A stretch of 64,000 nt of DNA from Seonamhaeicola sp. S2-3 (lineage in GTDB: Bacteria; Bacteroidota; Bacteroidia; Flavobacteriales; Flavobacteriaceae), in the NCBI RefSeq assembly GCF_001971785.1, contig NZ_CP019389.1, forward strand, positions 1,747,001 through 1,811,000, written 5' to 3'. A model generated the notes under the pieces. The model saw nothing but the letters and a program-made list of their open reading frames with translations. It made no database searches and had not been told where the DNA came from. Shown here one piece after another: positions 15,561 to 41,664 of the stretch (positions are counted from its first letter, which is position 1; each line of letters begins with the position of its first letter). Both the position numbers and the translations under genes were made by a program.

Positions 15561-17507
15561 ATGCAAGAGTTAAAACTTTCAAATTGGTTGCCTACCACAA
15601 ACAAAGAGGTGAAAATAAGAGGATGGGATGAACTTGATGTTATCCTGTTTAGTGGAGATGCGTATGTAGACCATCCTACTTTTGGGCATGCTGTAATTGG
15701 GCGTTTGTTAGAAAGTTTAGGGTTACGGGTGGCTATTGTGCCCCAACCTAATGTAAATGATAATCTTCAGGATTTTGTGAAACTTGGTGCACCTAAATTG
15801 TTTTTTGGGGTTACCGGTGGCTGTATGGATCCAATGATTAGCAATTATAACGCTAATAAAAGACGAAGAAAAAAAGATGCTTATACACCAAATGGTGATA
15901 TTGGGTTTAGACCAGACTATGCTACAACGGTATATTCAAATATTTTAAAAGAAAAATGGCCAGACGTACCCGTTTTAATTGGTGGTATAGAAGCATCTTT
16001 AAGACGTGTTACACATTACGACTATTGGAGCGATAAATTAATGCCTACTATTTTAGAGAGCTCTAAAGCCGATATGTTGGTGTATGGTATGGGAGAACAG
16101 CCATTACGAGAAGTAGTTAGGTTATTGCAAAAAGGCGTACCTTTTAGTAGTATAAATACGGTGAAACAAACAGCTATTTTGGTTGATAAAAATGCTAAAA
16201 TACCTAAGAATAGTAATTGGGAGGATGTTGAAATTGCTTCGCATGAAACATGTTTAAAAGATAAAAAGACCTACGCTTCTAACTTTAAAATTATTGAGCA
16301 AGAATCTAACAAACTTTATGCACGACGCATTTTTCAGAAAGTAGGCGATAAAACGTTGATGATTAATCCGCCTTATCCAACCATGACTGAAGACGAAATT
16401 GATGCGTCTTTTGATTTGCCTTACACCAGATTACCACACCCAAAATATAATAAACGAGGTCCTATTCCTGCATTTGAAATGATAAAATTTTCAATTAACG
16501 TGCACCGTGGGTGTTTTGGTGGTTGTAGTTTTTGCACCATTTCTGCTCATCAAGGAAAATTTATTGCATCTAGAAGTCAGGAATCGGTATTGAAAGAAGT
16601 GGATCAAGTGACAAATATGCCCGATTTTAAAGGTTATTTATCTGATATTGGTGGCCCTAGTGCTAATATGTATAAAATGAAAGGCAAGGTGCAATCTATT
16701 TGCGACAAATGCGTTGCTCCAAGTTGTATTTCACCAGTAATATGTAGTAATTTAGATACGTCACATAAACCGTTAACCCAATTATATCAAGCGGTTGATA
16801 GTCATCCTAAAGTAAAAAAGTCTTTTATTGGTTCTGGTATTCGTCATGATATGTTGGTGCCCGAGTTTAATAAAAATGCAGACCCAAAAGAGTTAGATGA
16901 TTATACCGAAGAGGTAATGACCAAACACGTGTCTGGTAGACTTAAAGTGGCTCCTGAACATACTAGCGATCCCGTTTTAAAGTTGATGCGCAAACCATCG
17001 TTTTCTTATTTTCATAAGTTTAAAGAGCGGTTCGATAAAATCAATGTAAAGCATAAATTAAAACTACAGTTAATACCCTATTTCATTTCAAATCATCCTG
17101 CTTGCGAAGCCGAAGATATGGCAAATTTAGCTGCCGAAACTAAAGATATGGGCTTTCAGTTAGAGCAAGTGCAAGGTTTTACTCCAACACCTATGACGGT
17201 GGCTACCGTAATTTATTACAGTGGTTACCATCCGTACACACTTAAAAAGGTGAAAACTCCTAAAACACAAAAAGAAAAAGATGAGCAACATCGATTTTTC
17301 TTTTGGTATAAAGATGAAAACAAAGCGTGGATAAGAAATACCTTAAATAAATTAGGTCGTCAGGATTTACTGGATGTTTTGCTTCCTAAAAAAGAAGAAA
17401 AATGGCGTAAAAATAAACCAAGGAAACCCAAACACACTTTTGATGATGCGGTTCCTTTTAATCAGAGAAAGAAGAAAGTGAAGTATAGGAAGAAGCGTAG
17501 AAAGTAG
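15561..17507 (+). CDS. YgiQ-family radical SAM protein
   Basis: 648 aa. N-terminal UPF0313 domain (YVDHPTFGHAVIGRLLESLG; GGIEASLRRVTHYDYW) followed by a radical SAM core with the cluster motif CFGGCSFCTISAHQG (CxxxCxxC, about residues 319-326). A second Cys group (CDKCVAPSC) lies downstream. The C-terminus is strongly basic (RKKKVKYRKKRRK), hinting at nucleic-acid contact. The family is widespread and its reaction is not established. Single gene divergent from rplM. Confidence 0.9.
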   Translation: MQELKLSNWLPTTNKEVKIRGWDELDVILFSGDAYVDHPTFGHAVIGRLLESLGLRVAIVPQPNVNDNLQDFVKLGAPKLFFGVTGGCMDPMISNYNANKRRRKKDAYTPNGDIGFRPDYATTVYSNILKEKWPDVPVLIGGIEASLRRVTHYDYWSDKLMPTILESSKADMLVYGMGEQPLREVVRLLQKGVPFSSINTVKQTAILVDKNAKIPKNSNWEDVEIASHETCLKDKKTYASNFKIIEQESNKLYARRIFQKVGDKTLMINPPYPTMTEDEIDASFDLPYTRLPHPKYNKRGPIPAFEMIKFSINVHRGCFGGCSFCTISAHQGKFIASRSQESVLKEVDQVTNMPDFKGYLSDIGGPSANMYKMKGKVQSICDKCVAPSCISPVICSNLDTSHKPLTQLYQAVDSHPKVKKSFIGSGIRHDMLVPEFNKNADPKELDDYTEEVMTKHVSGRLKVAPEHTSDPVLKLMRKPSFSYFHKFKERFDKINVKHKLKLQLIPYFISNHPACEAEDMANLAAETKDMGFQLEQVQGFTPTPMTVATVIYYSGYHPYTLKKVKTPKTQKEKDEQHRFFFWYKDENKAWIRNTLNKLGRQDLLDVLLPKKEEKWRKNKPRKPKHTFDDAVPFNQRKKKVKYRKKRRK

Positions 17508-29336: not shown

Positions 29337-29409
29337 TGGCCTATGGTGTAACTGGCAACACGTCTGGTTTTGGTCCAGAAGAGTCTAGGTTCGAGCCCTA
29401 GTAGGCCAA
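29337..29409 (+). tRNA. tRNA-Gln (anticodon UUG)
   Basis: Folded by hand: acceptor TGGCCTA/TAGGCCA (7 bp), D stem GTGT/ACAC, anticodon stem TCTGG/CCAGA with loop TTTTGGT (anticodon TTG), T stem CTAGG/CCTAG with loop TTCGAGC, discriminator A. CCA is not encoded. A strong promoter precedes it and a terminator follows. The accessory region begins just downstream. Confidence 0.95.
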
Positions 29410-29421
29410 CAAGTAATTTAT

Positions 29422-29454
29422 AAGTCCTTGCAGTAAAATGTAAGGACTTTTTTT
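29422..29454 (+). terminator. Terminator of tRNA-Gln
   Basis: AAGTCCTT, a 12-nt loop, AAGGACTT, then a run of seven T. Confidence 0.85.
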
Positions 29455-29482
29455 ATGGGTTTATATTTTGGTAAGAAGTGGA

Positions 29483-29551
29483 ACCGCCTTTAAAAAAGGT
29501 TTCTAATTATAATTTTAGGATACATTATGGGCTTGTGCAACGGTTACCGTT
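29483..29551 (-). repeat. 69-bp boundary repeat, copy 1
   Basis: Matches 30996-31064 at 63 of 69 positions with no gaps, in the same orientation. Read on the minus strand it follows the stop of the EreA/ChaN-like gene and contains the 7-bp stem CAACGGT/ACCGTTG, CCGTTGCACAAGCCC and, at its far end, a second short hairpin. It is a shared 3' element of two adjacent genes. Confidence 0.85.
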
Positions 29552-29566
29552 GTTGTACGCAGTGTT

Positions 29567-30754
29567 TTAATCATTTAAATGTTTATCTCTACTCTCTAAT
29601 AATTTCTCAAATGTCGGATACTTTTTTATTTTCTTGGTATTCAGTTCTTTCACAAAATTTTCTTTAAAATCTTCATCTTCGAGTTTTTCTAAAAATGTGT
29701 TATTCTCAAAATATTCAGATTGTATTTTTAATCTTCTAAACATTTCTTCCTCAAAATCTTTTGAAATCATACCATTGAAATTGTCTATTAATTTGTGCTT
29801 CTCTATTGGTTTATAAAAAACAAAACCATCAAACACATCATTATATTTAACTTCTTCCATTCCATTCCACATATCAAAGTCATCATTTCCGAAAATAGAA
29901 TTATTAAAATCAAATCCAATATCATCTATTTTCTGCTTTTTGAATGATGCATCCCATTTTCCATTTTGGATGAGTTCATATTCCCATTTTTGCTCTTTTC
30001 TTGAAAAAATGGGACAGTTTATTAGAATACTTACTACTCGATTACCGAAATAATCTGAAAGGAATTTACCAGAGTTTTGTTGCAGTTCTCCATTACTTCT
30101 AATTGTGTGAATTTTAAATGCGTGTCGGTAGTTTAATATAACTAGTGCTTTCTTTTTTGCTTTAGGTTCTATACTTTCAAATTGATTGATAATGTTGTAA
30201 GCAATTATGCTATCTCTTGGTTCAATTTCAAAATCTTGCTCTCTTTCGTAATCCTCAACATTATGTACTTTATTCCAGTCAAATTCTGAATCGGAAGGGT
30301 AAAGTGAAATTTGATTTTCGGATGTGTTATTAACATCGTAGATAGTTTTTAAAAGATAATTGAAATTATATCTTTCCCAAATGAACCAAAAGCTTGCATT
30401 CTGTTGAAATTTAGTTATTTTTCTCTCTATGGAAATACTATCTAAATCTTTTGATTTTAAAAACTCTGTAATTTCTGGTTGAAGATTTATAATTCCATTT
30501 TCAATAAAGATATTTTTTACGTTTTTTTTAAAATATTCATCAGTCAAAACATCTTTTATTAATTCGTATTGAGAAAATTCGCTGTGATTTCTTTCACACA
30601 AAATTACAATGTCATGTTTTTTAAACTGCTGTAAGATGTAATCTTTTGCAGATTTCTTTTCTATTTTTTTTAAATAATCAACGTAAGGTTTTATTTCAGA
30701 GTTTTCAGAACAACTAAAAATTGTTAACAGAAATATCAGTAAAATATTTTTCAT
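29567..30754 (-). CDS. Lipoprotein distantly resembling EreA/ChaN-fold proteins
   Basis: 395 aa from the ATG at 30754; a TTG three codons upstream is less likely. A lipobox (LIFLLTIFSC) makes it an envelope lipoprotein. HDIVILCERNHSEFSQYELI and later ALVILNYRHAFK resemble the two conserved blocks of the erythromycin-esterase/ChaN/TraB-like fold (acidic residue plus His), but the usual GE-x-H is CERNH. Enzymatic activity is unproven. It is the first gene unit of the accessory array and is bracketed by the 13-bp inverted near-repeat GTTGTACGCA[GA]TG (29552-29564 and 30783-30795). Confidence 0.5.
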   Translation of the reverse strand: MKNILLIFLLTIFSCSENSEIKPYVDYLKKIEKKSAKDYILQQFKKHDIVILCERNHSEFSQYELIKDVLTDEYFKKNVKNIFIENGIINLQPEITEFLKSKDLDSISIERKITKFQQNASFWFIWERYNFNYLLKTIYDVNNTSENQISLYPSDSEFDWNKVHNVEDYEREQDFEIEPRDSIIAYNIINQFESIEPKAKKKALVILNYRHAFKIHTIRSNGELQQNSGKFLSDYFGNRVVSILINCPIFSRKEQKWEYELIQNGKWDASFKKQKIDDIGFDFNNSIFGNDDFDMWNGMEEVKYNDVFDGFVFYKPIEKHKLIDNFNGMISKDFEEEMFRRLKIQSEYFENNTFLEKLEDEDFKENFVKELNTKKIKKYPTFEKLLESRDKHLND

Positions 30755-30782
30755 AGTTCTCAATTCAGGGTTCTGTTTCCGA

Positions 30783-30901
30783 CATTGCGTACAACGTGTT
30801 TCTTTAGTTTGTATTAAATAACTTTAGATAGAAAATCCGCGAGGACTTTCGTAAATTGGCTAAAACCAAGCAATTAATTATACACGGTGTACCTGTTGCA
30901 C
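30783..30901 (-). repeat. attC-like boundary upstream of the EreA/ChaN-like gene
   Basis: On the minus strand it runs from GTGCAAC (30901-30895) to CGTTGTACGCAATG (30796-30783). The end arms GTGCAAC and GTTGTAC are complementary with one wobble, and inner ACACG/CGTGT arms add to the symmetry. The non-coding gap 30755-31065 (311 bp) consists of this element, an IS remnant and the second 69-bp repeat; I see no gene in it. Confidence 0.5.
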
Positions 30902-30920
30902 AAGATAAGAAAAAGCTATA

Positions 30921-30984
30921 ATGCAATTGTGTAAAAAAGTCAAATTTCTTATCTTTATATATGCAGGGAAAAAAGACAAGTCTA
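30921..30984 (+). mobile_element. Possible 5' remnant of an IS1182-family transposase gene
   Basis: An AT-rich promoter-like stretch ends at ATG CAG GGA AAA AAG (30961, MQGKK), then stops after three more codons. MQGKK is the start of many Bacteroidota IS1182 transposases as I remember them. No further transposase sequence is present. A chance match cannot be excluded. Confidence 0.4.
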
Positions 30985-30995
30985 TAAAAACAGAA

Positions 30996-31064
30996 ACCGC
31001 CTCTAAAGACAGTTTCTAATTATAATTTTAAGATAAATTATGGGCTTGTGCAACGGTTACCGTT
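30996..31064 (-). repeat. 69-bp boundary repeat, copy 2
   Basis: Second copy of 29483-29551 (six mismatches), starting 2 bp after the stop of the unknown 265-aa gene when read on the minus strand. The repeat end nearest the IS remnant has arms GAAAC/GTTTC, where copy 1 has GGAACC/GGTTTC, so the short hairpin is kept despite changes. Confidence 0.85.
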
Positions 31065-31065
31065 T

Positions 31066-31863
31066 TTATTGGTTAATATCATTAAAATCATCTACAAAAC
31101 TTAAAGGATATTCATCAAGCTTATGAAATTCAGCCCTATATTTTTTATCTGTTATAAATTTTGGAATATCTAACATTAAATGAGATGTCTTTTCTAGAAC
31201 AAACTTTTCGAAATGATTCCAATTCATTTCCCATTCAGAACCTTGTCCAACTCCTTCAAGAAAATTACTTTGGTCATCTAGATAATACATTTTATCTCCT
31301 CCGAATTTATATGTATAAAACATTAATGATTTTCTAAAATTGTTTAAGTTTTCAAGGTATTTTTTGTCTTTATAATTTTTTTCTGTAAAAAAACGACAAA
31401 ACGACCACCACCTTGAATAGTAAGGAATATGGTTAGAGTAATGTTCTTTGTTTATAGTTAAATAGTCACAACCATTTTCATTATCAGAATTCAATGAGAA
31501 GTTTGGATGGATTAATTCCTTTTGTTCTTCTAATATTGTTTCTTCATTGGGTAATTTTCCTTCGTAATAAATCCAGTAGTCTGGATTATAGAATAATTCA
31601 TTTCCAAACTTACTATGGAGTTCTTTTAGTTGGAAACTATCGTCAATAAGCCTAAACGTTTTAAAATCTTTGTGCTTTACAATTTTGTCTATGATAACAA
31701 GTTCATCTTCTTTTTCTTTTCCTAATAGTTTAAAATGTTCTTTTTGTCCGAAATATCCATATTCAATATTTATATCAATGCGAGATATAATATCTTCTGC
31801 AAGTTCTTTTACACTTTCAGTATTCAGTTTATGATTTCCTATTGGCGAGATATCCCTTCCCAT
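31066..31863 (-). CDS. Protein of unknown function, 265 aa
   Basis: I do not recognise a family. It starts MGRDISPIGNHKLN, has no signal peptide or membrane helix, and is rich in aromatic and acidic residues (PYYSRWWSFCRFFTEKN; GSEWEMNWNHFEKF). It is probably cytosolic. It forms one unit of the minus-strand accessory array, with an attC-like site directly upstream and a 69-bp repeat directly downstream. Immunity-like or stress roles are common for such cargo but nothing in the sequence proves one. Confidence 0.6.
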   Translation of the reverse strand: MGRDISPIGNHKLNTESVKELAEDIISRIDINIEYGYFGQKEHFKLLGKEKEDELVIIDKIVKHKDFKTFRLIDDSFQLKELHSKFGNELFYNPDYWIYYEGKLPNEETILEEQKELIHPNFSLNSDNENGCDYLTINKEHYSNHIPYYSRWWSFCRFFTEKNYKDKKYLENLNNFRKSLMFYTYKFGGDKMYYLDDQSNFLEGVGQGSEWEMNWNHFEKFVLEKTSHLMLDIPKFITDKKYRAEFHKLDEYPLSFVDDFNDINQ

Positions 31864-31881
31864 TTCAGTTTTTCTAGTTTA

Positions 31882-32014
31882 TGCCCAAAAGTCTTGGTTA
31901 TGCGTAGTGCGGGATTTCAAGGCACTTCACTTTCCGTTTAGCAGTTAGTTTATTTAATGTAATTACTTTCATATTAGTACTTCCGCCCGCATTACGTATG
32001 GCCATTGTTGGGCA
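31882..32014 (-). repeat. attC-like site (nested inverted arms)
   Basis: Outer arms TGCCCAA (31882-31888) and TTGGGCA (32008-32014) are perfect inverted repeats. Inner arms TGCGTAGTGCGGG (31901-31913) and CCCGCATTACGTA (31986-31998) pair with two mismatches. On the minus strand the element begins GCCCAAC, an exact RYYYAAC core, and ends TTTGGGC, one base off GTTRRRY. The total of 133 bp falls in the attC size range. It lies between the R-M operon and the next gene on the same strand. Confidence 0.5.
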
Positions 32015-32042
32015 ATCGTACTTTTTTTTCGTCCGTCTGTCA

Positions 32043-32132
32043 GCGTTGGCAAAGACATACTCTTTGGCAATTTTTGGCTTGTGTGTTGGCTTTAGCAAAT
32101 TACAAATGTGTATGGCTTTTAGCGTTGGCATT
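32043..32132 (+). repeat. Left copy of the direct repeat bracketing the R-M block
   Basis: Contains GCGTTGGCA twice (32043-32051, 32122-32130). The 16-mer TTTTAGCGTTGGCATT (32117-32132) recurs at 35587-35602 in the same orientation, and the stretch after the first GCGTTGGCA (AAA...ACTCTTTGG...TTTTT) resembles 35557-35590. Confidence 0.75.
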
Positions 32133-32138
32133 ATTCAG

Positions 32139-33194
32139 TCAGAATATTAATTCTTTTAACATTTGTTTTATGTCTAAATGTTTTGCTCCTTGAACTGACT
32201 TTGAGTTCATTCCAACCAACTCAACCCAATCCATAATCTTTTTCTTTTCTGTCGTTTTTTCATTCCAATATTCAGACAATTCGATTGCTGAAGTATTAAC
32301 CAAAATTTCCAACACAGAATCTATATTATCAAACAACTTTATAAATACTCTAGGAATGTTTTTATACGTTTTGTTTTTAATAAAATAATCTGCTTTTCCA
32401 CCAGCAGTAAATAAATCTCTTACATTCGGACAAACAATAGCTTCTCGTGTTACAAGCCATATTGCAAGTCGAGCAAATTTATCTCCACGATTACTAAAAA
32501 CCTCTGGAAAATAAACCATTGCTCTGTTTTTAATCTCTTGCTTTTCTTTTAAGCTCAAGTTGTTCCAAACATTTATAACAAGATTACTTGCTTGTTCTGT
32601 GTCTTGAATCCACCACAAATCTTGACCAGGTTTCAACTTACTTTTATAGTAGTCCGTAATTGGCTTAATCGGATTTTTCTTTTGACGCAAAGTATCATAA
32701 GGTGTATTGATTTTGTCAAAAATGGTTTTTCCCTCCTCCAAGTCCATATCGATTAAATACCTTGGCGAATGTGTAACAACAACTTCTGATAAACATTCTT
32801 CATAAGCACGACACCTAAATTCAATTGGTTTTCCAAGTTTACCGAAAAGCATAAAAATTCGCTCGACATCATCTACTCTTGTAGATTCTAATACACTATT
32901 CCCTGTTGTTTTCCAATGGTTTTTAGTTGTTGTTTTGACTTCTATACCATAAAACTTTTTCGCAACAATGTCTGGGAACTTTTGTCCTCCAATTAATTCA
33001 ATTGAATTTTCAAATTGCGAACCTACAGCTAAATCGGTCATTACATCTCTAACATAAGGTTCAAGCTTCGCACCTTTTAATTGTTCAATCTTTTTAGGTG
33101 ATTTCTTTGCGTGAATATTTAATTCTTCAATTGTAGAATGTAATAAAGCGTTGAACTCACTTTTATGTGGTTCTGAATTAACTGATACTACCAT
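32139..33194 (-). CDS. Type II restriction endonuclease of the C.M.R operon
   Basis: 351 aa. FPDIVAKKFYGIEVKTT (about residues 73-89) is a classic PD...ExK nuclease site. I do not recognise the subfamily, so the recognition site is unknown. Its ATG overlaps the methyltransferase stop as TAATG, so it is made by translational coupling after the methyltransferase, a way to delay toxic activity. Third gene of the controller-methyltransferase-endonuclease operon. Confidence 0.78.
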   Translation of the reverse strand: MVVSVNSEPHKSEFNALLHSTIEELNIHAKKSPKKIEQLKGAKLEPYVRDVMTDLAVGSQFENSIELIGGQKFPDIVAKKFYGIEVKTTTKNHWKTTGNSVLESTRVDDVERIFMLFGKLGKPIEFRCRAYEECLSEVVVTHSPRYLIDMDLEEGKTIFDKINTPYDTLRQKKNPIKPITDYYKSKLKPGQDLWWIQDTEQASNLVINVWNNLSLKEKQEIKNRAMVYFPEVFSNRGDKFARLAIWLVTREAIVCPNVRDLFTAGGKADYFIKNKTYKNIPRVFIKLFDNIDSVLEILVNTSAIELSEYWNEKTTEKKKIMDWVELVGMNSKSVQGAKHLDIKQMLKELIF

Positions 33195-34558
33195 TATTTT
33201 TTAAAATATAAATCCCAAACATCTTCTATTCTTTTTGCTAAATTGTAAGCGAGTAGTGGTGGAACCGCATTACCAATTACTTTATAAGCTTTTGATGGAC
33301 TTACTAAATAGGAACCTTTACGACCGTTTTTATTAGGTATTACAAATTCATAATCAGGTGGAAAAGTTTGTATTAGCGCACACTCTCTAGGGGTCAAACG
33401 CCTTTCCTTCAGCCCTTTAGAAAGTTCATCTGTTAAAATTCCACCGTTTTTTTTAGATAATCTTCTAAACTCTATATTTCCGTGATGTTCTGCCCTAATT
33501 GTTGGACTTATTCCATCTAACTTTATCTCTATTTGTCCTTGGCAATGCTTACCCATAAATTTTGCTTTTGAGTAAAATTTTTGAGATAAATCTTTTGAGT
33601 TTTCAGGCTCTTCTAAATTTACGAAAAGTTCTTTTAAATCTACATGACGTTTTAAATCTTCTCCGTCAGTTGTGTAAGCGTGAGTTGGTCTAGGATACGG
33701 ATTGTATTTATCTGAAATGTATTCTCTTTCTAATTGTTCAAGAGCGGATTTTTTTAATGCAGATTTTTTTATACCAATAAAGAAGACTCGTTCCCTTGAT
33801 TGCGGAACACCATAATCTGCTGCGTGTAAAACACGAGGATTTAAAACTAAATATCCATTATCTCCAGCTGAAGAGAAATCATTTTGAATAATGTCTTTGA
33901 CGTTTGAAAGATTTACTAAACCTTTGACATTTTCTGCAATAAAAATTTTAGGTTGAGTTATTTCTATAACTTGTTTCATCCACATATAAAGTTGCCCACG
34001 AGTTTCTTCTGTTGCACAAGTTTCTGTATTTAGTTCTCCTTTATGGTTTTTATGTGAATTAAATCCGTTTCTTTTTCCGGCAATACTAAAATCTTGACAA
34101 GGGAAACCACCAGTTACGATGTCTATATTTTTCGGAAAAACCTTTGTTCCGTTTTGGTGTAATTTTACTAAATCAACAATGCTGTCAGTTTGGTAGAGTT
34201 CTGCGTTGTGTCCTCTTTTTGAAAAATAGTTTACCCAAGCGTTTCGTGCATCTTTTAAAATGTCATTTGCAAAAACTGTTTTAAAACGTGTTTTTGAAAG
34301 TTTAACGAAGTTATTATCAAGTTCTTCACTTATAAAGTCAGGATTTAAAATCTCGTTTACAGATGATTTTAAAACAGAAAAATCTCCTTCAAAACCTAAA
34401 TCCATTCCGCCACAACCAGAAAATAAAGAAAGCATATTTAATGTTGATTTTCTCTTTTGTTCTTTTTTATTGGCTTTTGGTTTAGAGTAAAACTTTACTG
34501 CTAATTGAGGTTCTTCAACTACGCTTAAATTTACTGTTTCAGTTGTTAATGATTGCAT
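33194..34558 (-). CDS. DNA (cytosine-5) methyltransferase of the C.M.R operon
   Basis: 454 aa. C5 motifs in order: I LSLFSGCGGMDLGFEG, IV VTGGFPCQDFSIAGKRNG with catalytic Cys, VI FIAENVKGL, VIII VPQSRERVFFIGIK, IX/X in RRLTPRECALIQTFP and YKVIGNAVPPLLAYNLA. A large target-recognition segment lies between VIII and IX, and there is an insert after motif I. It starts 2 bp after the controller gene. It protects DNA against the downstream endonuclease. It is unlike the 17.6-kb methyltransferase outside the motifs, so the two systems are of independent origin. Confidence 0.94.
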   Translation of the reverse strand: MQSLTTETVNLSVVEEPQLAVKFYSKPKANKKEQKRKSTLNMLSLFSGCGGMDLGFEGDFSVLKSSVNEILNPDFISEELDNNFVKLSKTRFKTVFANDILKDARNAWVNYFSKRGHNAELYQTDSIVDLVKLHQNGTKVFPKNIDIVTGGFPCQDFSIAGKRNGFNSHKNHKGELNTETCATEETRGQLYMWMKQVIEITQPKIFIAENVKGLVNLSNVKDIIQNDFSSAGDNGYLVLNPRVLHAADYGVPQSRERVFFIGIKKSALKKSALEQLEREYISDKYNPYPRPTHAYTTDGEDLKRHVDLKELFVNLEEPENSKDLSQKFYSKAKFMGKHCQGQIEIKLDGISPTIRAEHHGNIEFRRLSKKNGGILTDELSKGLKERRLTPRECALIQTFPPDYEFVIPNKNGRKGSYLVSPSKAYKVIGNAVPPLLAYNLAKRIEDVWDLYFKK

Positions 34559-34560
34559 AG

Positions 34561-34869
34561 TTAGTTTTGTATTGGGTGTGATTTTAAATATTTGATTTTT
34601 TTCTCCGCAACTTTTAGCACTTTACTTGCACAATCTTCGTCTGCTATTTCATAAGCAATTTTATCGCTTATAAATTGTACTAAAAGCTCGTCTTTATCAA
34701 GTTTTAAGATTTCTGCAAGTTTCTCCAACATTTCTTTTGTTGGTTTTCGCTCATTTCTTTCGATTTTACTCAAAATAGCTTGATCGATATCGACATAAGC
34801 AGAAACTTGTCTTAAAAGAAGTCCGAGAGCTTGTCTTTTATTTCGTAAAATTTGTCCGATTGTTTCCAT
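34561..34869 (-). CDS. XRE-family controller (C) protein of the R-M operon
   Basis: 102 aa from the ATG at 34869; the longer reading begins at TTG 34890 inside the operator. A Cro/C1-type HTH fills residues 1-60 (GQILRNKRQALGLLLRQVSAYVDIDQAILSKIERN in two helices plus turn), followed by a helical C-terminal extension. Its position ahead of the methyltransferase and endonuclease, and the 47-bp dyad at its own promoter, identify it as a C protein that times R-M expression. C proteins are usually about 80 aa, so this one is slightly long. Confidence 0.88.
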   Translation of the reverse strand: METIGQILRNKRQALGLLLRQVSAYVDIDQAILSKIERNERKPTKEMLEKLAEILKLDKDELLVQFISDKIAYEIADEDCASKVLKVAEKKIKYLKSHPIQN

Positions 34870-34915
34870 TTGACAATTATTATTTGACAATTATTGTCAA
34901 ATATAGTTTGTCAAA
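34869..34915 (-). promoter_or_regulatory. 47-bp symmetric operator of the C.M.R operon
   Basis: Read on the minus strand: TTTGACAAA, 5 bp, TTTGACAAT, one A, ATTGTCAAA, 5 bp, ATTGTCAAA. The four half-sites are symmetric about base 34892. The last half-site overlaps the ATG of the controller gene; the second contains part of the -7 box. Confidence 0.85.
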
Positions 34916-34928
34916 TTTTGGAAAGCAA
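34898..34928 (-). promoter_or_regulatory. Promoter of the C.M.R operon, inside the operator
   Basis: TTG (34928-34926), 20 bp, TATATTTG (34905-34898) on the minus strand, a full consensus match. Transcription should start near the centre of the dyad, so a bound controller would block it. Confidence 0.75.
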
Positions 34929-34951
34929 GAAATTCAGATTGTATTTTTCTA

Positions 34952-34966
34952 GCTTGTGGCTAACGG
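34952..34966 (-). repeat. Boundary motif upstream of the R-M operon
   Basis: Minus-strand CCGTTAGCCACAAGC, one of a set of GTT-N5-CAA motifs found upstream of genes in this region (also 30783-30796, 37054-37066, 38031-38044; shorter GTT-N3-CAA forms at 35653-35663, 31042-31056 and 29529-29543). Confidence 0.45.
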
Positions 34967-35191
34967 CAGTCTGTCTCAAAACTACCAATTAAAGTTTAAA
35001 AATAGATTAAAAAGTGAATATTGCCAAATAATTATCGTACGGTTTTAATTTGTGCTCAAAAGACGTCCATCATGTCAATGTTTGTATTTTTAATGCTGTG
35101 ATATGCCCTTTGAGCCTTTTGGATATAGGTCTCAGGTCTATTTTTAAGTTGAACTGCCTTCTCAGATTATAAGCAATGGCAATTTTGGTAA
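34967..35191 (-). mobile_element. Probable insertion-sequence end joined to the truncated restriction gene
   Basis: On the minus strand the truncated gene runs into a basic 40-residue tail (IAYNLRRQFNLKIDLRPISKR...) unlike its own family and like a transposase C-terminus. About 100 bp after the stop comes GTTTTGAGACAGACTGC (34983-34967), which looks like an IS terminal repeat. The IS family is not identified and the other end is missing. Confidence 0.35.
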
Positions 35192-35537
35192 TGAATTCGC
35201 CATCTTGGTACAGATGAAAGTTAATGTAGTCCGTAAAAATCAAATTGTTTAGAGAAGCTTTGTAGCGGTCAAATTGCTCTTTGTTTCCTGTTTTCTTTGT
35301 ACCGTCAAGGTCTTTGTCGCCAATGTCTTTAGCTTCAATAAATCCAACAGGAATATCTTTTTTCGTCAAAATGTAGTCAGGTGCTCCGCAACTCTGTCTT
35401 TTCGGTTCGTTGGTCGCTCTAATGGTCGGCACCAAACTTTCTAAAAGTTGCTGCAAGTCGTCACGAAAAGTATGTTCGGTTGCGTTTCCGAGTTTGTATC
35501 TTTTGTCTAAGTTGTCAATGTATTCTTGTAATGTCAT
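35070..35537 (-). pseudogene. Truncated restriction-modification enzyme (N-terminal nuclease domain only)
   Basis: 155 aa. Residues 1-115 match the N-terminus of large single-chain restriction-modification enzymes (type IIG/ISP-like, usually over 900 aa): the PD-(D/E)XK site GAPDYILTKKDIPVGFIEAKD and the following KKTGNKEQFDRYKASLNNLIFTDY block (shown in parts). The methyltransferase, helicase or specificity parts are gone and residues from about 116 on are foreign, probably an IS tail. It is almost certainly non-functional as an R-M enzyme, though the nuclease domain itself may still be translated. Confidence 0.7.
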
Positions 35538-35556
35538 TTATTCAATTTCTTTCAGT

Positions 35557-35602
35557 GCGTTGGCAAAAAATAGCTCTTTTGGTCTTTTTTAGCGTTGGCA
35601 TT
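35557..35602 (+). repeat. Right copy of the direct repeat bracketing the R-M block
   Basis: GCGTTGGCA at 35557-35565 and 35592-35600; the 16-mer TTTTAGCGTTGGCATT at 35587-35602 is identical to 32117-32132. The rest of the 363-bp gap 35538-35900 holds a boundary motif (CCGTTGGACAA on the minus strand, 35653-35663) and AT-rich DNA; no gene is evident. Confidence 0.75.
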
Positions 35603-35900
35603 GCGTGTCGGCAAAACCAAATGTGCTGTTTGTGTAGTGGGCTTTTTGTATGTTGTCCAACGGTTTTGTGTATGATTTCGTTGCGATGAAATTTAAAAAT
35701 AAACTAATAAAAAAACATAAATAATGGAAAAAAGTTGCACAACCATGAATTCCATCAATACGTATTTGTTATGCTATTTTTTGTAAAACATAACTAATTG
35801 ATATATTGGGCTTTTAATTATTTCTAATAATTCAAAAACTATCAATTTATTCCTGATGACGAGTTGCGCAACGCTTACCTTTGTTAGGTACAGTACTTTT

Positions 35901-37010
35901 TTAAAATCCATAAGTCAATCGGTCAACAGTGTAGGTTCTATCTACTGGGTTAAAATTGATAATATTTTTATAAGCAACATCAGTACAAATAAATAATGAA
36001 GGTAATGAGGTATTCAAAACCTCTTCACCTCTCTCCATATTTCTAATTACTAACGTCATATTATCTAAATAAGCTCCTTTAAAATCTTCATTTGGACTAT
36101 CTGGATTAAATTGTCCAAGATGAATTGTTATTTCTAAATTATCCTGAATAGTTATTTCTTGTAATCCTTGAGTGGATGAATGAGGATGACTATAAGATGT
36201 TCCTTCAAATCCTTCTGCTCCTTCAAAAATTGTATCATTATCATCAATATTATAGTTAATTTCATAATAAAAATACTCTGCTTCAACACCACAGCTATTT
36301 GTATGCCCTGTAATATTTAACTCAACTTCATAAATAGATGACTGGGTTGTAAAAGTTTCTTCATTTCCATACGTAATACCATTTTCATTTATAGCGTAAG
36401 CCCTTACATAGTAAGTAGTGTTTTCTTGTAGACCTGTAATCTCTGAATTATAATTATAGTTATTTGTATTATCTTCTATTGAACTATCATCAATTGTGGG
36501 GTTTTGAGAGGTACTCCAGCAAATTCCTTTACTGGTAATTGTTCCGTCTCCATCATCATTGATTATTCCTCCACTCGTTGCACTATTTAATGTAATATTT
36601 TCAATAGTTTTTGTTACAATATCAATTTCTCCTATTGCTGTTGTAAACTCAATTTCGTTTCCGTAATACTCTCCAGTTGGATTTACAAAAAACGTTCTCA
36701 TATAATATGTTGTATTTCTTTCCAAATTAGTAACTTCAGATGAAATGTTTTCTCCATTAATTTCTATAATGTTATCATCAGTTTTTGGAAGTGTTGTTTT
36801 GGCGTAAACAAAACCTTGAGAAGTAACTGAGCTTTCGCAAGTTGGTGCGATTATTTGCCCGCTAAATGTTGCGCTAGTTTCAGTAATATTGGAAGCCTCT
36901 TCGGTAAATAAAGTTGGCGTATATGTACAATCTGGATTATTCTCATCATCAGAGTTTGAGCAGGATGTAAATATGGTTAACAGAATTAAAATTTTAAATG
37001 TAAATTTCAT
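35901..37010 (-). CDS. Lipoprotein with two fibronectin type III-like repeats
   Basis: 369 aa. Lipobox ILLTIFTSC near residue 17, then two tandem Fn3-like domains (about 40-125 and 130-222), each with a NITxTSATxSG-like start and an NTTYYxRxxxxNxxGxxYGNExxFTT end. A unique C-terminal domain (225-369) follows. It is probably exposed on the cell surface or in the periplasm and involved in binding. Single gene in the accessory array with boundary motifs on both sides; similar lipoproteins are common in flavobacteria. Confidence 0.75.
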   Translation of the reverse strand: MKFTFKILILLTIFTSCSNSDDENNPDCTYTPTLFTEEASNITETSATFSGQIIAPTCESSVTSQGFVYAKTTLPKTDDNIIEINGENISSEVTNLERNTTYYMRTFFVNPTGEYYGNEIEFTTAIGEIDIVTKTIENITLNSATSGGIINDDGDGTITSKGICWSTSQNPTIDDSSIEDNTNNYNYNSEITGLQENTTYYVRAYAINENGITYGNEETFTTQSSIYEVELNITGHTNSCGVEAEYFYYEINYNIDDNDTIFEGAEGFEGTSYSHPHSSTQGLQEITIQDNLEITIHLGQFNPDSPNEDFKGAYLDNMTLVIRNMERGEEVLNTSLPSLFICTDVAYKNIINFNPVDRTYTVDRLTYGF

Positions 37011-37053
37011 ATCATAATTTTTTGTTGTTTAATTCAATCTTTTTTTGTTCGTA

Positions 37054-37163
37054 TTGTGCTTAACGGTTAGTATATGAAAAGCAGGCGGTTAAGAAGCACG
37101 GAACTTTCGGTTATGCACAAATTTTGACACGAGCCAATCTCCTCGAATTCAGCACTAAATCGC
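37054..37163 (-). repeat. Boundary element between the SRPBCC gene and the Fn3 lipoprotein gene
   Basis: On the minus strand it begins directly after the SRPBCC stop and ends with CCGTTAAGCACAA (37066-37054), where GTTAAGC matches GTTRRRY exactly. Partly complementary CTTAACCG/CGTTAAG arms are present. I remember similar stretches dispersed in other Flavobacteriaceae genomes, but this needs a search. Confidence 0.45.
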
Positions 37164-37598
37164 CTATTTTTTATATACATTGTTACCTGCTGGCTTTTTT
37201 ATTTCAGTTCCTATTTTGTTCATTATTCCGTTCCAATGTTCTTTCATTTCTGCTCTCTGTTCAGCATTCAATAATTTCTCGTGGTGAATTGCAACTGTTG
37301 TCTTTTCTTGATTTCCAATTACTCTAATTTGAATTGTTGACATATTTTCCCAATTTTTCGGTTTCCAATTCAGTCGAATATGGGAATTTGCTTTAAAAAC
37401 ACGAACAAGTCCTGTTATGCCATTTTCAGTTTCGTATTCTTTTTTAATTACAAGTTCATTTTTCAAATTGCCTAACCAAATTTTTAGTCCATTCTCGGAA
37501 AATAAAAAGTCCCAAACTTTCTCAGTCGAAACAGAAAAGGTTTTCCTTATTCCAAATTGAAATCCTACATCTTTGGTTTTCCCGACTTGATTTTCCAT
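37164..37598 (-). CDS. SRPBCC (AHSA1-like) domain protein
   Basis: 144 aa from the ATG at 37598, 4 bp after the RidA stop; a longer reading would overlap RidA by 38 bp. START/SRPBCC features: a first strand FGIRKTFSVSTEKVWDFLFS, WLGNL, then IRLNWKPKNW and the C-terminal helix AEMKEHWNGIMNKIGTEI. The family binds hydrophobic ligands in a deep cavity; the ligand is unknown. It is cotranscribed with the RidA gene as one unit of the array. Confidence 0.8.
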   Translation of the reverse strand: MENQVGKTKDVGFQFGIRKTFSVSTEKVWDFLFSENGLKIWLGNLKNELVIKKEYETENGITGLVRVFKANSHIRLNWKPKNWENMSTIQIRVIGNQEKTTVAIHHEKLLNAEQRAEMKEHWNGIMNKIGTEIKKPAGNNVYKK

Positions 37599-37602
37599 TT
37601 TC

Positions 37603-38013
37603 TTATTTTTCAGGTTTAAATGCGATAGCATCAATTTCAAGTAAAAATTCGGGATTTATTAGTCCTGCAACATACAAAACTGTAATAATCGGTGGGTTTG
37701 GGTTTTGTCCTAAAAATTTCTGTGAAACTTGAAATGCACCATAAGCATTCTGTCCTTGAACAATGTGAATGTTTAATTTCACTAAACTCTCAAAATTTAC
37801 TCCACAAGATTTAAGAGCAATTTCAAGGTTTTTCATTACTTGCTCGGTTTGTTGTAAAATATCATTTTTCCCTACAATTTCTCCATTTCCGTTTACTGCA
37901 TTTTGTCCACCGATATAAATTGTCTTTCCGTTTCCTTCAGTCGTTATAATTTGAGAAAATGCAGGATTTTTTATTAGTCCATTTGGATTTATATGTTCTA
38001 TTTTATTCTCCAT
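37603..38013 (-). CDS. RidA/YjgF/Rid-family protein
   Basis: 136 aa. Rid-family features: GKTIYIGGQNAVNGNGEIVG, QTEQVMKNLEIALKSCG, and the C-terminal GLINPEFLLEIDAIAF. The catalytic Arg of true RidA (in the block near NPPIITVLYV, usually R-x-[TC]-x-x-V) is not evident, so enamine/imine deaminase activity is uncertain. Forms a two-gene unit with the SRPBCC protein. Confidence 0.82.
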   Translation of the reverse strand: MENKIEHINPNGLIKNPAFSQIITTEGNGKTIYIGGQNAVNGNGEIVGKNDILQQTEQVMKNLEIALKSCGVNFESLVKLNIHIVQGQNAYGAFQVSQKFLGQNPNPPIITVLYVAGLINPEFLLEIDAIAFKPEK

Positions 38014-38030
38014 TGTTCGTTGTTTTCAGC

Positions 38031-38160
38031 TTGCAGGCAACTAGTTTATATAAAGAACTTTCCGCACAATAAACCACCAATTAAGTAGGCTATGCAGAAA
38101 AAGCTTGGTTTTTGTGCGTTGTTATTGTTTTAAATTTTGTAGTACACGGGCTACAAGATA
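38031..38160 (-). repeat. Boundary element at the right edge of the accessory array
   Basis: Minus strand ends in CTAGTTGCCTGCAA (38044-38031), upstream of the RidA start. Its far side carries TTGTAG...CTACAA arms (38138-38157). The whole non-coding stretch 38014-38607 (594 bp) consists of this element, an inverted repeat (38191-38226), two short tandem arrays (38303-38409) and the AT-rich promoter region of the next gene; no gene seen. Confidence 0.4.
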
Positions 38161-38190
38161 TAGCTTTTTTTAAAACTATCAAACAAATAA

Positions 38191-38226
38191 TAATCCTAAA
38201 ATGACTGTACAGGCATTTTAGGATTA
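38191..38226. repeat. 13-bp perfect inverted repeat
   Basis: TAATCCTAAAATG and CATTTTAGGATTA, separated by 10 nt. No long T run follows, so terminator function is uncertain. Confidence 0.7.
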
Positions 38227-38302
38227 AGAAAAAGAGTTGTATAATTATATCAGGATTTATTTATTAACCTGTATAACTATTTTAGGACGGGTCACACTCA
38301 CC

Positions 38303-38330
38303 ATTCACTATTCACTATTCACTATTCACT
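38303..38330 (+). repeat. Tandem repeat, 4 x ATTCACT
   Basis: Four exact head-to-tail copies of a 7-bp unit. Confidence 0.9.
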
Positions 38331-38337
38331 TCTCACT

Positions 38338-38409
38338 CCTATAGCTGCCCTATAGCTGCCCTATAGATGTCCTATGGATGTCCTATGGATGTCCTATGGA
38401 TGTCCTATG
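38338..38409 (+). repeat. Tandem repeat, 11-bp unit, about 6.5 copies
   Basis: Units drift in order: CCTATAGCTGC twice, CCTATAGATGT once, CCTATGGATGT three times, then a partial CCTATG. The unit length is close to one helical turn. Confidence 0.9.
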
Positions 38410-38607
38410 CTTTACCTATGAATAAAATTATTGAATTTTTAATTGGTTTAAAATTTGCGCCTTAATATTAACTTTAATAACGTAACATTTAAGTTACAAT
38501 TTAATAAGGTTAGCTTGCTTGTTTTTACATTATAATAAAGTTGAGGTAATGATTTAAGTATTTGGTATTGTTTTATTTACTAATTAATTAATCCAACTTA
38601 AAATCAA

Positions 38608-41600
38608 ATGAAAAAAATTACACTTTTGGCTAGTTTAACACTAGCTGTTATCACAACATGTTTCAGTCAAGATCCGCTTCAGCATTTAGCAAGTTATTCT
38701 ACAAATACTGAAGGTTCTGCAGAAACCGTAGCTTATGATGCTGCAAACCAACAAGCATTTTTTACCAACTCATCTACCAACTCTTTCACTATTGTAGATA
38801 TTAGTTCGCCTAATTCACCTGTTTTAGTTAAAACGGTTGATTTGTCATCATACGGAGCAGGGCCAAACTCCATTGCAATTCATGGGAGTGTTGTAGCTGT
38901 AGCTGTAGAAGATGCTATAAAACAAAACAACGGAAAAGTTGTGTTTTTCAATTTAAACGGTGTATATCAAAACCAAATAACAGCAGGTGCTTTACCAGAT
39001 ATGCTAACCTTTACGCCAGATGGTACTAAAGTTATTGTAGCTAATGAAGGAGAGCCATCAGACGATTATTTAACAGATCCAGAAGGCTCTATTACTGTAA
39101 TAGACTTAAGTGCAGGGGTTATGTCGGCTACTGCAACTTCAATTAATTTTAATGGTTATGATGACAAAAAAGAATCATTAAAAAACAAAGGCATTCGTAT
39201 TTTTGGTAACAATGGTGCGGCTACAGTATCTCAAGATTTAGAACCAGAATATATCACCGTTTTAGATGATGGTTCTAAAGCCTATGTTAGTTGTCAAGAA
39301 AACAACGCACTTGCGGTGGTAGATTTAACAACAAATACCATTTTAGATATTCTTCCGTTAGGATATAAAAATCATTTATTAGGAACACCAACAGTAACTA
39401 GTTATATTGTAAATGAATTAGAAGAAAACTGGCCAGCATTAGGAACACCAGTTTATGATGGCGGACAGCCAACCGTTATGCTTGGTGGTTTCTCAGGGCT
39501 TTTTTATGATGAAGCAAATTCTACTGCAACAGATTATGTATTTTACGCCATACCAGATAGAGGGCCTAATGATGCTACAACTAGTAAAAATGATGTCACT
39601 CCTGCAGCATCTCAAAATTTACGTCCGTTTAAATTGCCAAATTATCAAGGTAGAATTGCCAAATTCACTTTAAATAAAACAACAGGAGATATAACTTTAA
39701 ACCAACAAATTTTATTAACCAGAAAAGATGGAACCACACCAATTACGGGTAAAGGAAATATCCCTGGAATTGATGAAGTTCCTGTAACTTATACCGATGC
39801 TGCTACGGCTTATACTAACGCCGACTATGTTGGTACAGATTCTGAAGAATATCACGCTTTACCATACGATGAATACGGTGGAGATTTTGAAGGTATTTTA
39901 ATTGATAAAGATGGTTATTTCTGGATGTGTGATGAGTACAGACCTGCAATCTATAAGTTTCAAGCTAACGGAACTTTGGTAGAACGTTATGTGCCATCAG
40001 GAACATCGTTACTTGGAGATACGCCACAACCAGAGGGGACTTACGGTGCCGAAACCCTGCCAGAAGTGTATGCATTACGTCGTGCTAATCGTGGGTTTGA
40101 AGCTATTGCTTATGATGAAGTAAACCACATTATTTATGCGTTTATTCAATCGCCAATCGAAAACCCTTCAAGTGCGGTTAGAAATAATTCTGATGTGATT
40201 AGAATTTTAGGAATCAATGCCAATACAGGGGCTCCTGTTTCAGAATATGTTTATCTTTTAGAAAGAAATAAAGATGCTGGTTATGCGTCTTCTAGAGTTG
40301 ATAAAATTGGTGATGCTGTTTACACAGGTAACGGTAAATTTTTAGTTATTGAAAGAGATTCTGAAGGTCCAGATGCCGAATACGGTAAAAAATACGTTTT
40401 TGAAATTGATATTAACTATGCTACCAACGTTTTAAATTATACGCTTTCTGGTTCTAAAGAATTAGAAGAAATGAGTGCTGATGAAATTTTAGCAGAAGGT
40501 ATTATAGTTTCGCATAAAAATAAAGTGGTAAACTTACCTTCAATTGGTTATAAATCTTCCGATAAAGCCGAAGGTATTGCATTGTTGCCAAACAATGAAA
40601 TTGCCATAATAAATGATAACGATTTTGGTTTAGCTGGTGCAGGAATTACAGACAGCAGTGTGTTAGGTATTATTTCTTTTGCTAACGATTATGGTTTTGA
40701 TGCTTCAAACAAAGACGGAAAAATTGATATTAAATCACATCCAACATTAGGTGTTTATATGCCAGATGCTATTGCGTCATATAATGTAAATGGCTTAAAC
40801 TATATTGTTACAGCAAATGAAGGAGATTCTAGAGATTACGATGGGTATTCTGAAGAAGATCGTGTAAAAGATTTAACTTTAAACACCGCTGCTGGCTATT
40901 ATCCAGATGCTACAACACTTCAAGAAGACGAAAACTTAGGTAGATTAAAAACAACCTATGCCGATGGCGATTATAATAACGATGGAACTTATGAGCAAAT
41001 TTACTCATATGGGGCACGTTCGTTTTCAATTTTTGATCAGTATGGTAATATTGTTTTTGATAGTGCAGATCAATTTGGGCAAACTATTGCTGTAGAAGAG
41101 CCTAGTTTATTTAATCAAGATGAAGAAGAATTTGATGGAAGATCTGATGATAAAGGAGGAGAACCAGAAGCAATAGCAATAGGAACCATTAATGGTAAAA
41201 CATATGCTTTTATTGGTTTAGAAAGACAAAGTTCTATTTTAATGTATGATATTACTAACCCTAAAGATGTAGAGTTTATTACCTATTATAAACACAATAG
41301 TACAATAGGCGATGTTGCGCCAGAAATTATTAAGTTTATTCCAGCTTCACAGAGTCCTAACTCTAAAAATTTACTTTTAGTAGGTTATGAAGTAAGTGGC
41401 TCTTTAGCAATTATTCAGGTAGATGATACCGCATTAAGTGTTAGTGAAGTTGTTACTAAAAACAATTTTAAAATGTATCCTAATCCAGTAATTGATACTA
41501 CTTTAAAGTTTAATAAAACGCTTTCTGGAGCTGTTTATAACTTAAACGGCCAAGAAGTAAAAACCTTTAACAATAAAACAGCTATAAATGTTTCTAAATT

Positions 41601-41664
41601 AGCAGCTGGTGTTTACATTGTAAAAACTAAAACACATGGAGTTAAGCGTTTTTTAAAATTGTAA
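38608..41664 (+). CDS. Secreted choice-of-anchor-I / esterase-like-of-phytase protein with T9SS sorting domain
   Basis: 1018 aa. Signal peptide (MKKITLLASLTLAVITTCFS). Residues 25-250 and 640-930 form a beta-propeller-like choice-of-anchor-I region (DMLTFTPDGTKVIVANEGEP; later IVTANEGDSRDYDG). Inserted between them (about 285-640) is an esterase-like-activity-of-phytase domain (GGFSGLFYD; DFEGILIDKDGYFWMCDEYR). The last 75 residues are a type IX sorting domain (FKMYPNPV...LAAGVYIVKTKT). It should be exported by the T9SS and may hydrolyse phosphate esters; activity is not shown. Confidence 0.85.
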   Translation: MKKITLLASLTLAVITTCFSQDPLQHLASYSTNTEGSAETVAYDAANQQAFFTNSSTNSFTIVDISSPNSPVLVKTVDLSSYGAGPNSIAIHGSVVAVAVEDAIKQNNGKVVFFNLNGVYQNQITAGALPDMLTFTPDGTKVIVANEGEPSDDYLTDPEGSITVIDLSAGVMSATATSINFNGYDDKKESLKNKGIRIFGNNGAATVSQDLEPEYITVLDDGSKAYVSCQENNALAVVDLTTNTILDILPLGYKNHLLGTPTVTSYIVNELEENWPALGTPVYDGGQPTVMLGGFSGLFYDEANSTATDYVFYAIPDRGPNDATTSKNDVTPAASQNLRPFKLPNYQGRIAKFTLNKTTGDITLNQQILLTRKDGTTPITGKGNIPGIDEVPVTYTDAATAYTNADYVGTDSEEYHALPYDEYGGDFEGILIDKDGYFWMCDEYRPAIYKFQANGTLVERYVPSGTSLLGDTPQPEGTYGAETLPEVYALRRANRGFEAIAYDEVNHIIYAFIQSPIENPSSAVRNNSDVIRILGINANTGAPVSEYVYLLERNKDAGYASSRVDKIGDAVYTGNGKFLVIERDSEGPDAEYGKKYVFEIDINYATNVLNYTLSGSKELEEMSADEILAEGIIVSHKNKVVNLPSIGYKSSDKAEGIALLPNNEIAIINDNDFGLAGAGITDSSVLGIISFANDYGFDASNKDGKIDIKSHPTLGVYMPDAIASYNVNGLNYIVTANEGDSRDYDGYSEEDRVKDLTLNTAAGYYPDATTLQEDENLGRLKTTYADGDYNNDGTYEQIYSYGARSFSIFDQYGNIVFDSADQFGQTIAVEEPSLFNQDEEEFDGRSDDKGGEPEAIAIGTINGKTYAFIGLERQSSILMYDITNPKDVEFITYYKHNSTIGDVAPEIIKFIPASQSPNSKNLLLVGYEVSGSLAIIQVDDTALSVSEVVTKNNFKMYPNPVIDTTLKFNKTLSGAVYNLNGQEVKTFNNKTAINVSKLAAGVYIVKTKTHGVKRFLKL

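Follow-up and report, generated by a model that had tools for sequence, protein, structure and literature searches.

A partly decayed cassette array without a recombinase in Seonamhaeicola sp. S2-3, and the integron-like system to which it very probably belongs

The 64,000-nucleotide stretch analysed here (the window; positions 1747001-1811000 of the 3.75-Mb single-contig genome of Seonamhaeicola sp. S2-3, NZ_CP019389.1) contains a block, from 29.57 to 38.01 kb in window coordinates, which are used for all sites in the window, where every gene lies on the minus strand and the spacers are non-coding, just as an earlier note, made from the letters alone, had described. Its sequence makes it very probable that this block is a cassette array, partly decayed and without a recombinase of its own, and that it belongs to an integron-like system found in many Flavobacteriaceae. 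The system works like an integron and falls outside the IntI-based tests of membership, and its likely recombinase is different from the known integron integrase, IntI. The note had proposed either a cluster of attC sites without an integrase or a cassette system specific to Bacteroidota; the proposal is supported, and the evidence fits both. Our literature search, whose scope left out preprints and most subscription papers, returned no earlier description of this cassette system.

The sites that delimit the units share one architecture, namely an R'' box ending in AAC, a spacer of about 3 nt, an L'' arm (GTATA..), a variable inner part, an L' arm (..TATAC), a spacer of 5-6 nt and an R' box beginning with GTT. 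Sixteen of them, all from this genome, make up alignment A1, on which the sequence-and-structure model R1 is based. This model was used in place of a generic scan for AAC/GTT inverted repeats without a consensus, which was discarded as too noisy (167 matches versus 124 in the reversed sequence); a simple motif scan gave 30 matches versus 2. When the pairs named by the analyst were counted on A1, 88.7% of them proved to be paired, and covariation reached 0.391, compared with 0.143 +/- 0.019 in shuffles (none of 500 attained the real value) and at most 0.083 in slid versions of the structure. The inner stem is paired at 97.3%, with both sides changed in 9 of its 14 pairs, and the outer stem at 71.4%. 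By covariation, these sites thus have the R''-L''-L'-R' architecture with intramolecular pairing that defines attC. Top-strand folds of real sites are far more stable than those of mononucleotide shuffles (-18.9 versus -9.6 kcal/mol), and six sites other than the one folded from the window gave z-scores from -1.34 to -4.78 against dinucleotide shuffles. The bottom strand folds more stably in 238 of 257 unequal pairs; because mononucleotide shuffles have a bias in that direction too (191 of 260), this preference is partly a matter of base composition, and we set it aside as evidence.

In the whole genome, R1 found 52 matches at E<=10 and 45 at E<=1e-3, both lower bounds with 150 of 5060 candidates scored. 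Of the 45, 27 form a single array of about 61 kb (3.026-3.088 Mb, all minus), six lie at 505-517 kb and five at 180-187 kb (all plus), and seven, the window's included, are scattered. In this genome, sites stand in same-strand clusters and next to unrelated genes, and 221 of 249 sampled Flavobacteriaceae genomes have sites at E<=1e-4 (single matches counted), so that the recurrence of boundaries anticipated by the note is borne out. They also occur in 79 of 296 sampled genomes of the phylum. Up to 13 candidates per genome were scored in the family survey, under stricter filters, and its counts are lower bounds.

The full-genome search for tyrosine recombinases that the note had suggested yielded seven Pfam integrase matches, one of which, a 388-residue tyrosine recombinase (3088440-3089603), lies on the same chromosome about 1.3 Mb from the window, immediately ahead of the large array's first cassette and co-directional with it; the complete platform occupies about 3.024-3.090 Mb. 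None of the seven falls in the window block, where the note had seen no integrase; a candidate exists elsewhere in the chromosome. Matches to this recombinase at E<=1e-60, remote relatives counted, are present in 128 of the 249 family genomes.

The logic of the cassettes became apparent from twenty regions next to recombinase homologues, 12 of them chosen for a site nearby and eight for the recombinase alone. R1 found 264 matches in these 337 kb, in 19 of the 20 regions and in seven of the eight for which the recombinase had been the sole criterion. After removal of two matches truncated by a locus end, 262 remained, and every one of them has the strand of the recombinase. The six bases that precede the end AAC pair with the six after the cassette's own start GTT at 5.80 of 6 positions (n=238), compared with 2.47 at the same junction, that is, with the next cassette, and 2.27 +/- 0.09 for shuffled partners; the corresponding values in our genome are 5.27, 2.86 and 2.61 +/- 0.33 (n=22). 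Such pairing of the end box with its own start is what circular cassettes require, and by sequence it is present here. It extends to position +7, is absent at +8 (0 of 239) and resumes from +9 to +11; at +8, A faces C in 211 of the 239 cassettes and G in 21, with seven other cases. In addition, one L-stem position has A opposite C in all 150 best matches, and at a second position A is present in 149 and C in 146. These A.C positions of the top strand would be G.T on the bottom strand.

The cassettes mostly hold a single gene. Their longest open reading frame runs forward in 204, in reverse in 13, and is shorter than 50 residues or absent in 22 of the 239, the median length being 653 bp. Near full-length relatives make up 19 pairs, five of them between genomes, and three 929-bp cassettes with identical ends lie near the recombinase of our genome. 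From a random draw of 70 out of 203 cassette proteins, 50, all from other genomes, were scanned (those left out include two long ones), and they matched 28 Pfam families, 24 of the 25 shown being represented by a single protein each; some match defence models.

Turnover of cassettes was looked for next to the recombinase. Both pairs of related platforms compared (2 of 2) are homologous from upstream of the recombinase through an attI-like palindrome and diverge at the GTT, and turnover at this putative main insertion point was seen in both. Uninterrupted palindrome arms of at least 7 occur at 6 of 17 loci, compared with 5% in the control; a perfect palindrome as a universal feature is rejected on the same count.

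Against this background, the window block reads as follows:

37182..38041, minus strand: cassette 1, with a RidA-family gene and an SRPBCC/AHSA1 gene (Pfam), start GTTGCCTGCAAGCT and end AAAAGCCAGCAGGT-AAC.
37054..37192, minus strand: intact attC-like site (R''-L''...L'-R'), R1 110.7 bits, E 2e-23, itself part of the training alignment A1.
35883..37064, minus strand: cassette 2, with a lipoprotein-like 369-residue protein, start GTTAAGCACAATAC and a partly decayed end box AAAGTACTGTACCT-AAC.
35070..35661, minus strand: cassette 3, decayed, with an N-terminal fragment of a type IIG restriction-modification enzyme and start GTTGGACAACATAC.
32020..34964, minus strand: cassette 4, decayed, with a controller, a C5 methylase and a type II restriction enzyme, and start GTTAGCCACAAGCT.
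31879..32017, minus strand: degenerate attC-like site, R1 37.6 bits, E 5.7e-6, with TTT at the crossover GTT.
31066..31890, minus strand: cassette 5, decayed, with a 265-residue protein without a Pfam match.
30895..31054, minus strand: remnant of an IS1182-family insertion sequence (IS) inside an attC-like site, with both terminal repeats and no transposase; borders by eye.
30785..30896, minus strand: rest of the attC-like site to the right of the IS remnant, R1 22.1 bits, E 0.03 (weak); B-type repeat.
29552..30795, minus strand: cassette 6, with a 398-residue protein, start GTTGTACGCAATGT and end AAAACACTGCGTAC-AAC.
About 29472..29541, minus strand: IS1182-family end remnant beside the end box of cassette 6; borders approximate.
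29337..29410, plus strand: tRNA-Gln, at the edge of the extra DNA.

Three of the six cassettes (1, 2 and 6) close on themselves, with scores of 15, 14 and 13 versus at most 10 for other candidates. Cassette 6 pairs at 7/7, then A.C, then 3/3; cassette 1 at 6/7 (wobble allowed), then A.C and 3/3; and cassette 2 at 5/7, then A.C and 3/3. Cassettes 3, 4 and 5 were searched for an end box of their own and none was found. A copy of cassette 1, 91.7% identical over 832 nt, lies in the main array (3034921-3035752), which, together with the closures, bears out the cassette reading of the note. All seven boundary motifs listed there are real, and they are of two kinds: five (30783-30796, 34952-34966, 35653-35663, 37054-37066 and 38031-38044) are cassette-start R' boxes of the form GTT-N7-A, like the sites found genome-wide, and two (29529-29543 and 31042-31056) are ends of IS1182-family elements. 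As for the cargo, we recovered the controller-methylase-restriction operon that had been predicted (a helix-turn-helix controller, a C5 methylase by Pfam and a type II restriction enzyme), the RidA-SRPBCC unit (both by Pfam) and the truncated restriction-modification gene, which is a truncated type IIG enzyme. Two labels were not sustained: the fibronectin type III (Fn3) matches of the 369-residue protein all fall below the Pfam cut-off, and the 'EreA/ChaN-like' protein matches no Pfam family at E<=0.001 and two domains of unknown function below threshold at E<=1. EreA homology between this protein and a cassette of the main array that encodes an erythromycin esterase was considered and rejected (E 0.2). 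The tRNA was the sole match in an Rfam scan.

The block as a whole is absent from 6 of 6 congeners. There, the distance between tRNA-Gln and RimP or Usp is 0.14-0.55 kb, no cassette genes are present, and R1 found no sites at the six loci; in the window, the distance from tRNA-Gln to Usp is 12.3 kb. In one congener (L230, 15428-15977), Usp and tRNA-Gln are 549 bp apart, and in the other five the next gene is 141-227 bp from tRNA-Gln.

Several observations weigh against the reading of the block as a decayed array of such a system. Recombination is inferred from sequence, and none has been observed. The window array is degraded, with three of its six cassettes without closure and two of its three R1 matches weak or degenerate, and single-strand folds of the window site are no better than those of dinucleotide shuffles (z 0.80 and -0.29). 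Gain or loss of single units at this locus, which the note had named as a test, was looked for in the six congeners and not seen. The structure used for covariation was drawn by the analyst from the same sequences on which it was counted, and the number of further pair types (19 versus 18.0 in shuffles) was reached by 192 of 500 shuffles. Twelve of the 20 large regions were picked because a site was already known near the recombinase; one region (L177) has no R1 site, nor does the locus with a recombinase of 39% identity in an archaeal bin (L243), searched over 10 kb. Finally, the array recombinases are united as one clade with a low support of 0.37, and the recombinase is near enough to IntI to match TIGR02249, below the cut-off.

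The last point bears on the most serious alternative, namely that the block is a cluster of attC sites lacking an integrase (CALIN) of the canonical kind, with ordinary attC sites and an IntI elsewhere or lost; we regard this as improbable. Integrons are defined by an integrase with an IntI-specific additional domain and CALINs by two or more attC sites spaced by less than 4 kb without an integrase, in the definitions given in PMC9668308, and Bacteroidota appear among the phyla with integrons in PMC8618304 and PMC9668308. With R1 in place of the published attC model, the degenerate site at 31879-32017 is about 1 kb from the weak one at 30785-30896, and the intact site at 37054-37192 is about 5 kb off. 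In favour of this alternative, the logic of AAC/GTT boxes, cassettes and an attI-like site is the same, the recombinase scores 204.3 bits with the integron integrase subfamily model TIGR02249 (cut-off 265, E 2.8e-60), and true IntI over the NCBIfam cut-off is found in 84 of the 296 phylum genomes (loci L193-L222). Of the 85 genomes listed with an IntI match, one belongs to the window's class and the rest are given as of the same phylum, which places the listed IntI almost wholly outside that class.

Several features of the recombinase argue against a canonical integron. No TIGR02249 match at E<=1e-60 exists in this genome, the recombinase falling just short, and its best sequence matches are of the XerA type, with 231.6 bits to the NCBIfam XerA/'integron integrase' model (cut-off 220). 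Its alignment with IntI4 (2a3v) breaks into two pieces, the gap between them being 20 residues here and 63 in IntI4. Two fixed motifs are separated by 59-60 residues in every one of 46 homologues and six plasmid relatives, by 65 and 67 in two other recombinases of this genome and by 101 in 30 of 30 IntI of the phylum; the IntI-specific insert is thus missing in 46 of 46 homologues, which makes the recombinase about 40 residues shorter than IntI at this place. In a FastTree phylogeny of 280 columns, the IntI clade (support 1.0) leaves the recombinase homologues outside. Its N-terminal 115-120 residues match no Pfam family, which also sets it apart from IntI. A structure model (mean pLDDT, the predicted local distance difference test, of 73.7; 8 sequences), read for family resemblance only, returned XerA and then IntI4 first in Foldseek by E-value, with low template-modelling scores of 0.37-0.54. 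The catalytic-type residues are invariant in the 8-sequence alignment, which retains 8 of the 13 loci found by the recombinase protein alone in Hyunsoonleella, Winogradskyella, Psychroserpens, Tenacibaculum and others (L237, L242 and L243 were left out, as were L233 and L241 on account of stops). Where at least 2 kb of downstream sequence was available at such loci, seven of eight have sites, every match being on the recombinase strand; at L239, three of the sites lie upstream of the recombinase.

The sites and the platform differ as well. R1 finds no sites in 30 IntI loci (110 kb) and six IntI neighbourhoods of 17-18 kb (107 kb), the canonical attC content of which is unchecked. The integron core consensus is RYYYAAC/GTTRRRY, whereas here AAC and GTT are kept and the second base after GTT is T, G or C and never A (239 cassettes). 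The integrase gene of integrons is usually divergent from the cassettes, unlike the co-directional recombinase of this system (262 of 262 sites on its strand), and the near-invariant A.C mismatches are a further difference. So is a divergent gene for a 126-residue zinc-finger-like protein with a CxxC...CxxxC pattern (Pfam Prok-RING_1 below cut-off), which was found upstream of the recombinase, at a distance of 56-188 bp, in 38 of 48 loci (at least one locus is counted twice, as L122 and L235 appear to be the same), for example at 14660-15040 in L071; 4 of the 10 loci without it have recombinases of 36-39% identity. Since the recombinase has neither the IntI insert nor a place among the IntI in the tree, the core consensus is not strictly kept and the gene orientation is not the usual one, we do not file the system as a member of the integrons. 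With sedentary chromosomal integrons and CALINs it shares a tyrosine recombinase beside an attI-like site, one-direction and mostly one-gene cassettes, folding sites with AAC...GTT boxes, an end box complementary to the start of the cassette that it closes, identical cassettes in several copies, arrays that lack a recombinase and an IS that follows the sites. Its recombinase resembles XerA, XerC and XerD (PDB 4a8e, 5hxy, 1a0p) in its XerA-type matches by sequence and in Foldseek, but it is associated with tens of folded cassette sites, whereas those go with a single dif-type site.

A second alternative, to which we assign a very low probability, takes the boundaries for mere IS repeats between which the units move by homologous recombination. 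IS1182-family elements or remnants do stand at many boundaries, including two in the window, where the terminal repeat GTTGCACAAG is found without a transposase at both positions of the two IS-type motifs; family membership is established by one full copy, at L065, whose transposase scores 323.7 bits with NF033551 (cut-off 270). The boundary at 29.44-29.57 kb, used as a query, gave 22 genome matches at E<1e-10, itself included, in same-strand clusters and mainly to the IS end, and a second boundary query showed a repeat family interleaved with that of the IS ends. In all 12 full-length IS units examined, however, the transposase is antisense to the array, and 11 of these units border on an R1 site with an almost constant offset, so that the IS seems to have followed the sites. 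Moreover, 31 of the 45 R1 sites have no IS end beside them, and IS ends do not explain the own-start closure and the inner-stem covariation. IS1111-attC and group IIC-attC elements enter the same place of a cassette site, but the element here is of the IS1182 family (DDE).

That the block is a tRNA-associated genomic island or a plain defence island, one-directional by chance, as its position beside tRNA-Gln and its restriction-modification cargo might suggest, is equally hard to credit given the cassette boxes and sites inside it, the lack of any of the seven Pfam integrase matches and the result of a search up to 45 kb, in which no 12-mer from the 3' part of the tRNA recurred exactly.

Returning to the integron-like cassette system, its complete platform in this genome consists of the divergent zinc-finger-like gene, the tyrosine recombinase gene, the attI-like site and co-directional cassettes, mostly of one open reading frame and one attC-like site each. 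The recombinase would act on the attI-like site as a double strand and on an attC-like site as a folded single strand, and would join the two with the crossover at the conserved GTT; circular cassettes would enter next to the recombinase, and recombination between two attC-like sites would excise cassettes as circles. We infer, rather than show, that this particular recombinase does the work and that its substrate is single-stranded and of a given strand, as well as the mode of cassette expression and whatever part the zinc-finger-like protein, a candidate accessory factor, may play. On balance, we favour the broader idea of a second, IntI-independent kind of integron, with a XerA-like recombinase that lacks the insert and has an N-terminal part of its own, a zinc-finger-like partner and folded sites whose strand choice would reside in the A.C (top) or G.T (bottom) positions; this would be one of the principal gene-capture systems of Flavobacteriaceae and perhaps a source of genes such as tet(X).

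If so, most sampled Flavobacteriaceae genomes would carry sites of an unrecognised cassette system, and about half of them relatives of its recombinase, which could explain much strain-specific gene content. Folded-site cassette recombination would then not need the IntI insert, and R1 would serve as a site model for finding cassettes in Bacteroidota. A cassette-like position of tet(X3) behind a recombinase relative would also tie a closely watched resistance gene to the system.

On an Acinetobacter indicus plasmid (NZ_CP041297.1, 7052-9110), a truncated recombinase relative, 54.9% identical over residues 155-388 and called xerD in PMC7530245, directly precedes tet(X3). An attI-like palindrome and GTTATGTGCC-A-TTT lie between the two, and beyond tet(X3) there is an end box that matches in part (both by eye). 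Since the relative, the palindrome and the box precede the gene and the end box follows it, tet(X3) seems to stand in first-cassette position; R1 found no site at this locus. Recombinase relatives are also carried by Bacteroidota plasmids of Rufibacter, Pontibacter, Chryseobacterium and Persicobacter (L188, L189, L191 and L192), with co-directional genes after the relative in the three that are annotated; R1 matches on these plasmids are few and mostly weak, with none in L189. Two Tenacibaculum finnmarkense plasmids contain a stretch of DNA that resembles one of the sites.

An 11-bp tandem repeat (TCCTATGGATG type) with adjoining sequence borders the window array on the right (38240-38424), and a repeat with adjoining sequence that looks similar by eye lies upstream of the main recombinase (L071, about 17090-17272). 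Next to the array, 38608-41664 encodes a 1018-residue choice-of-anchor I protein with a type IX secretion system tail, for which five of six congeners have no match at E<=1e-50 and one has a partial match of 46%.

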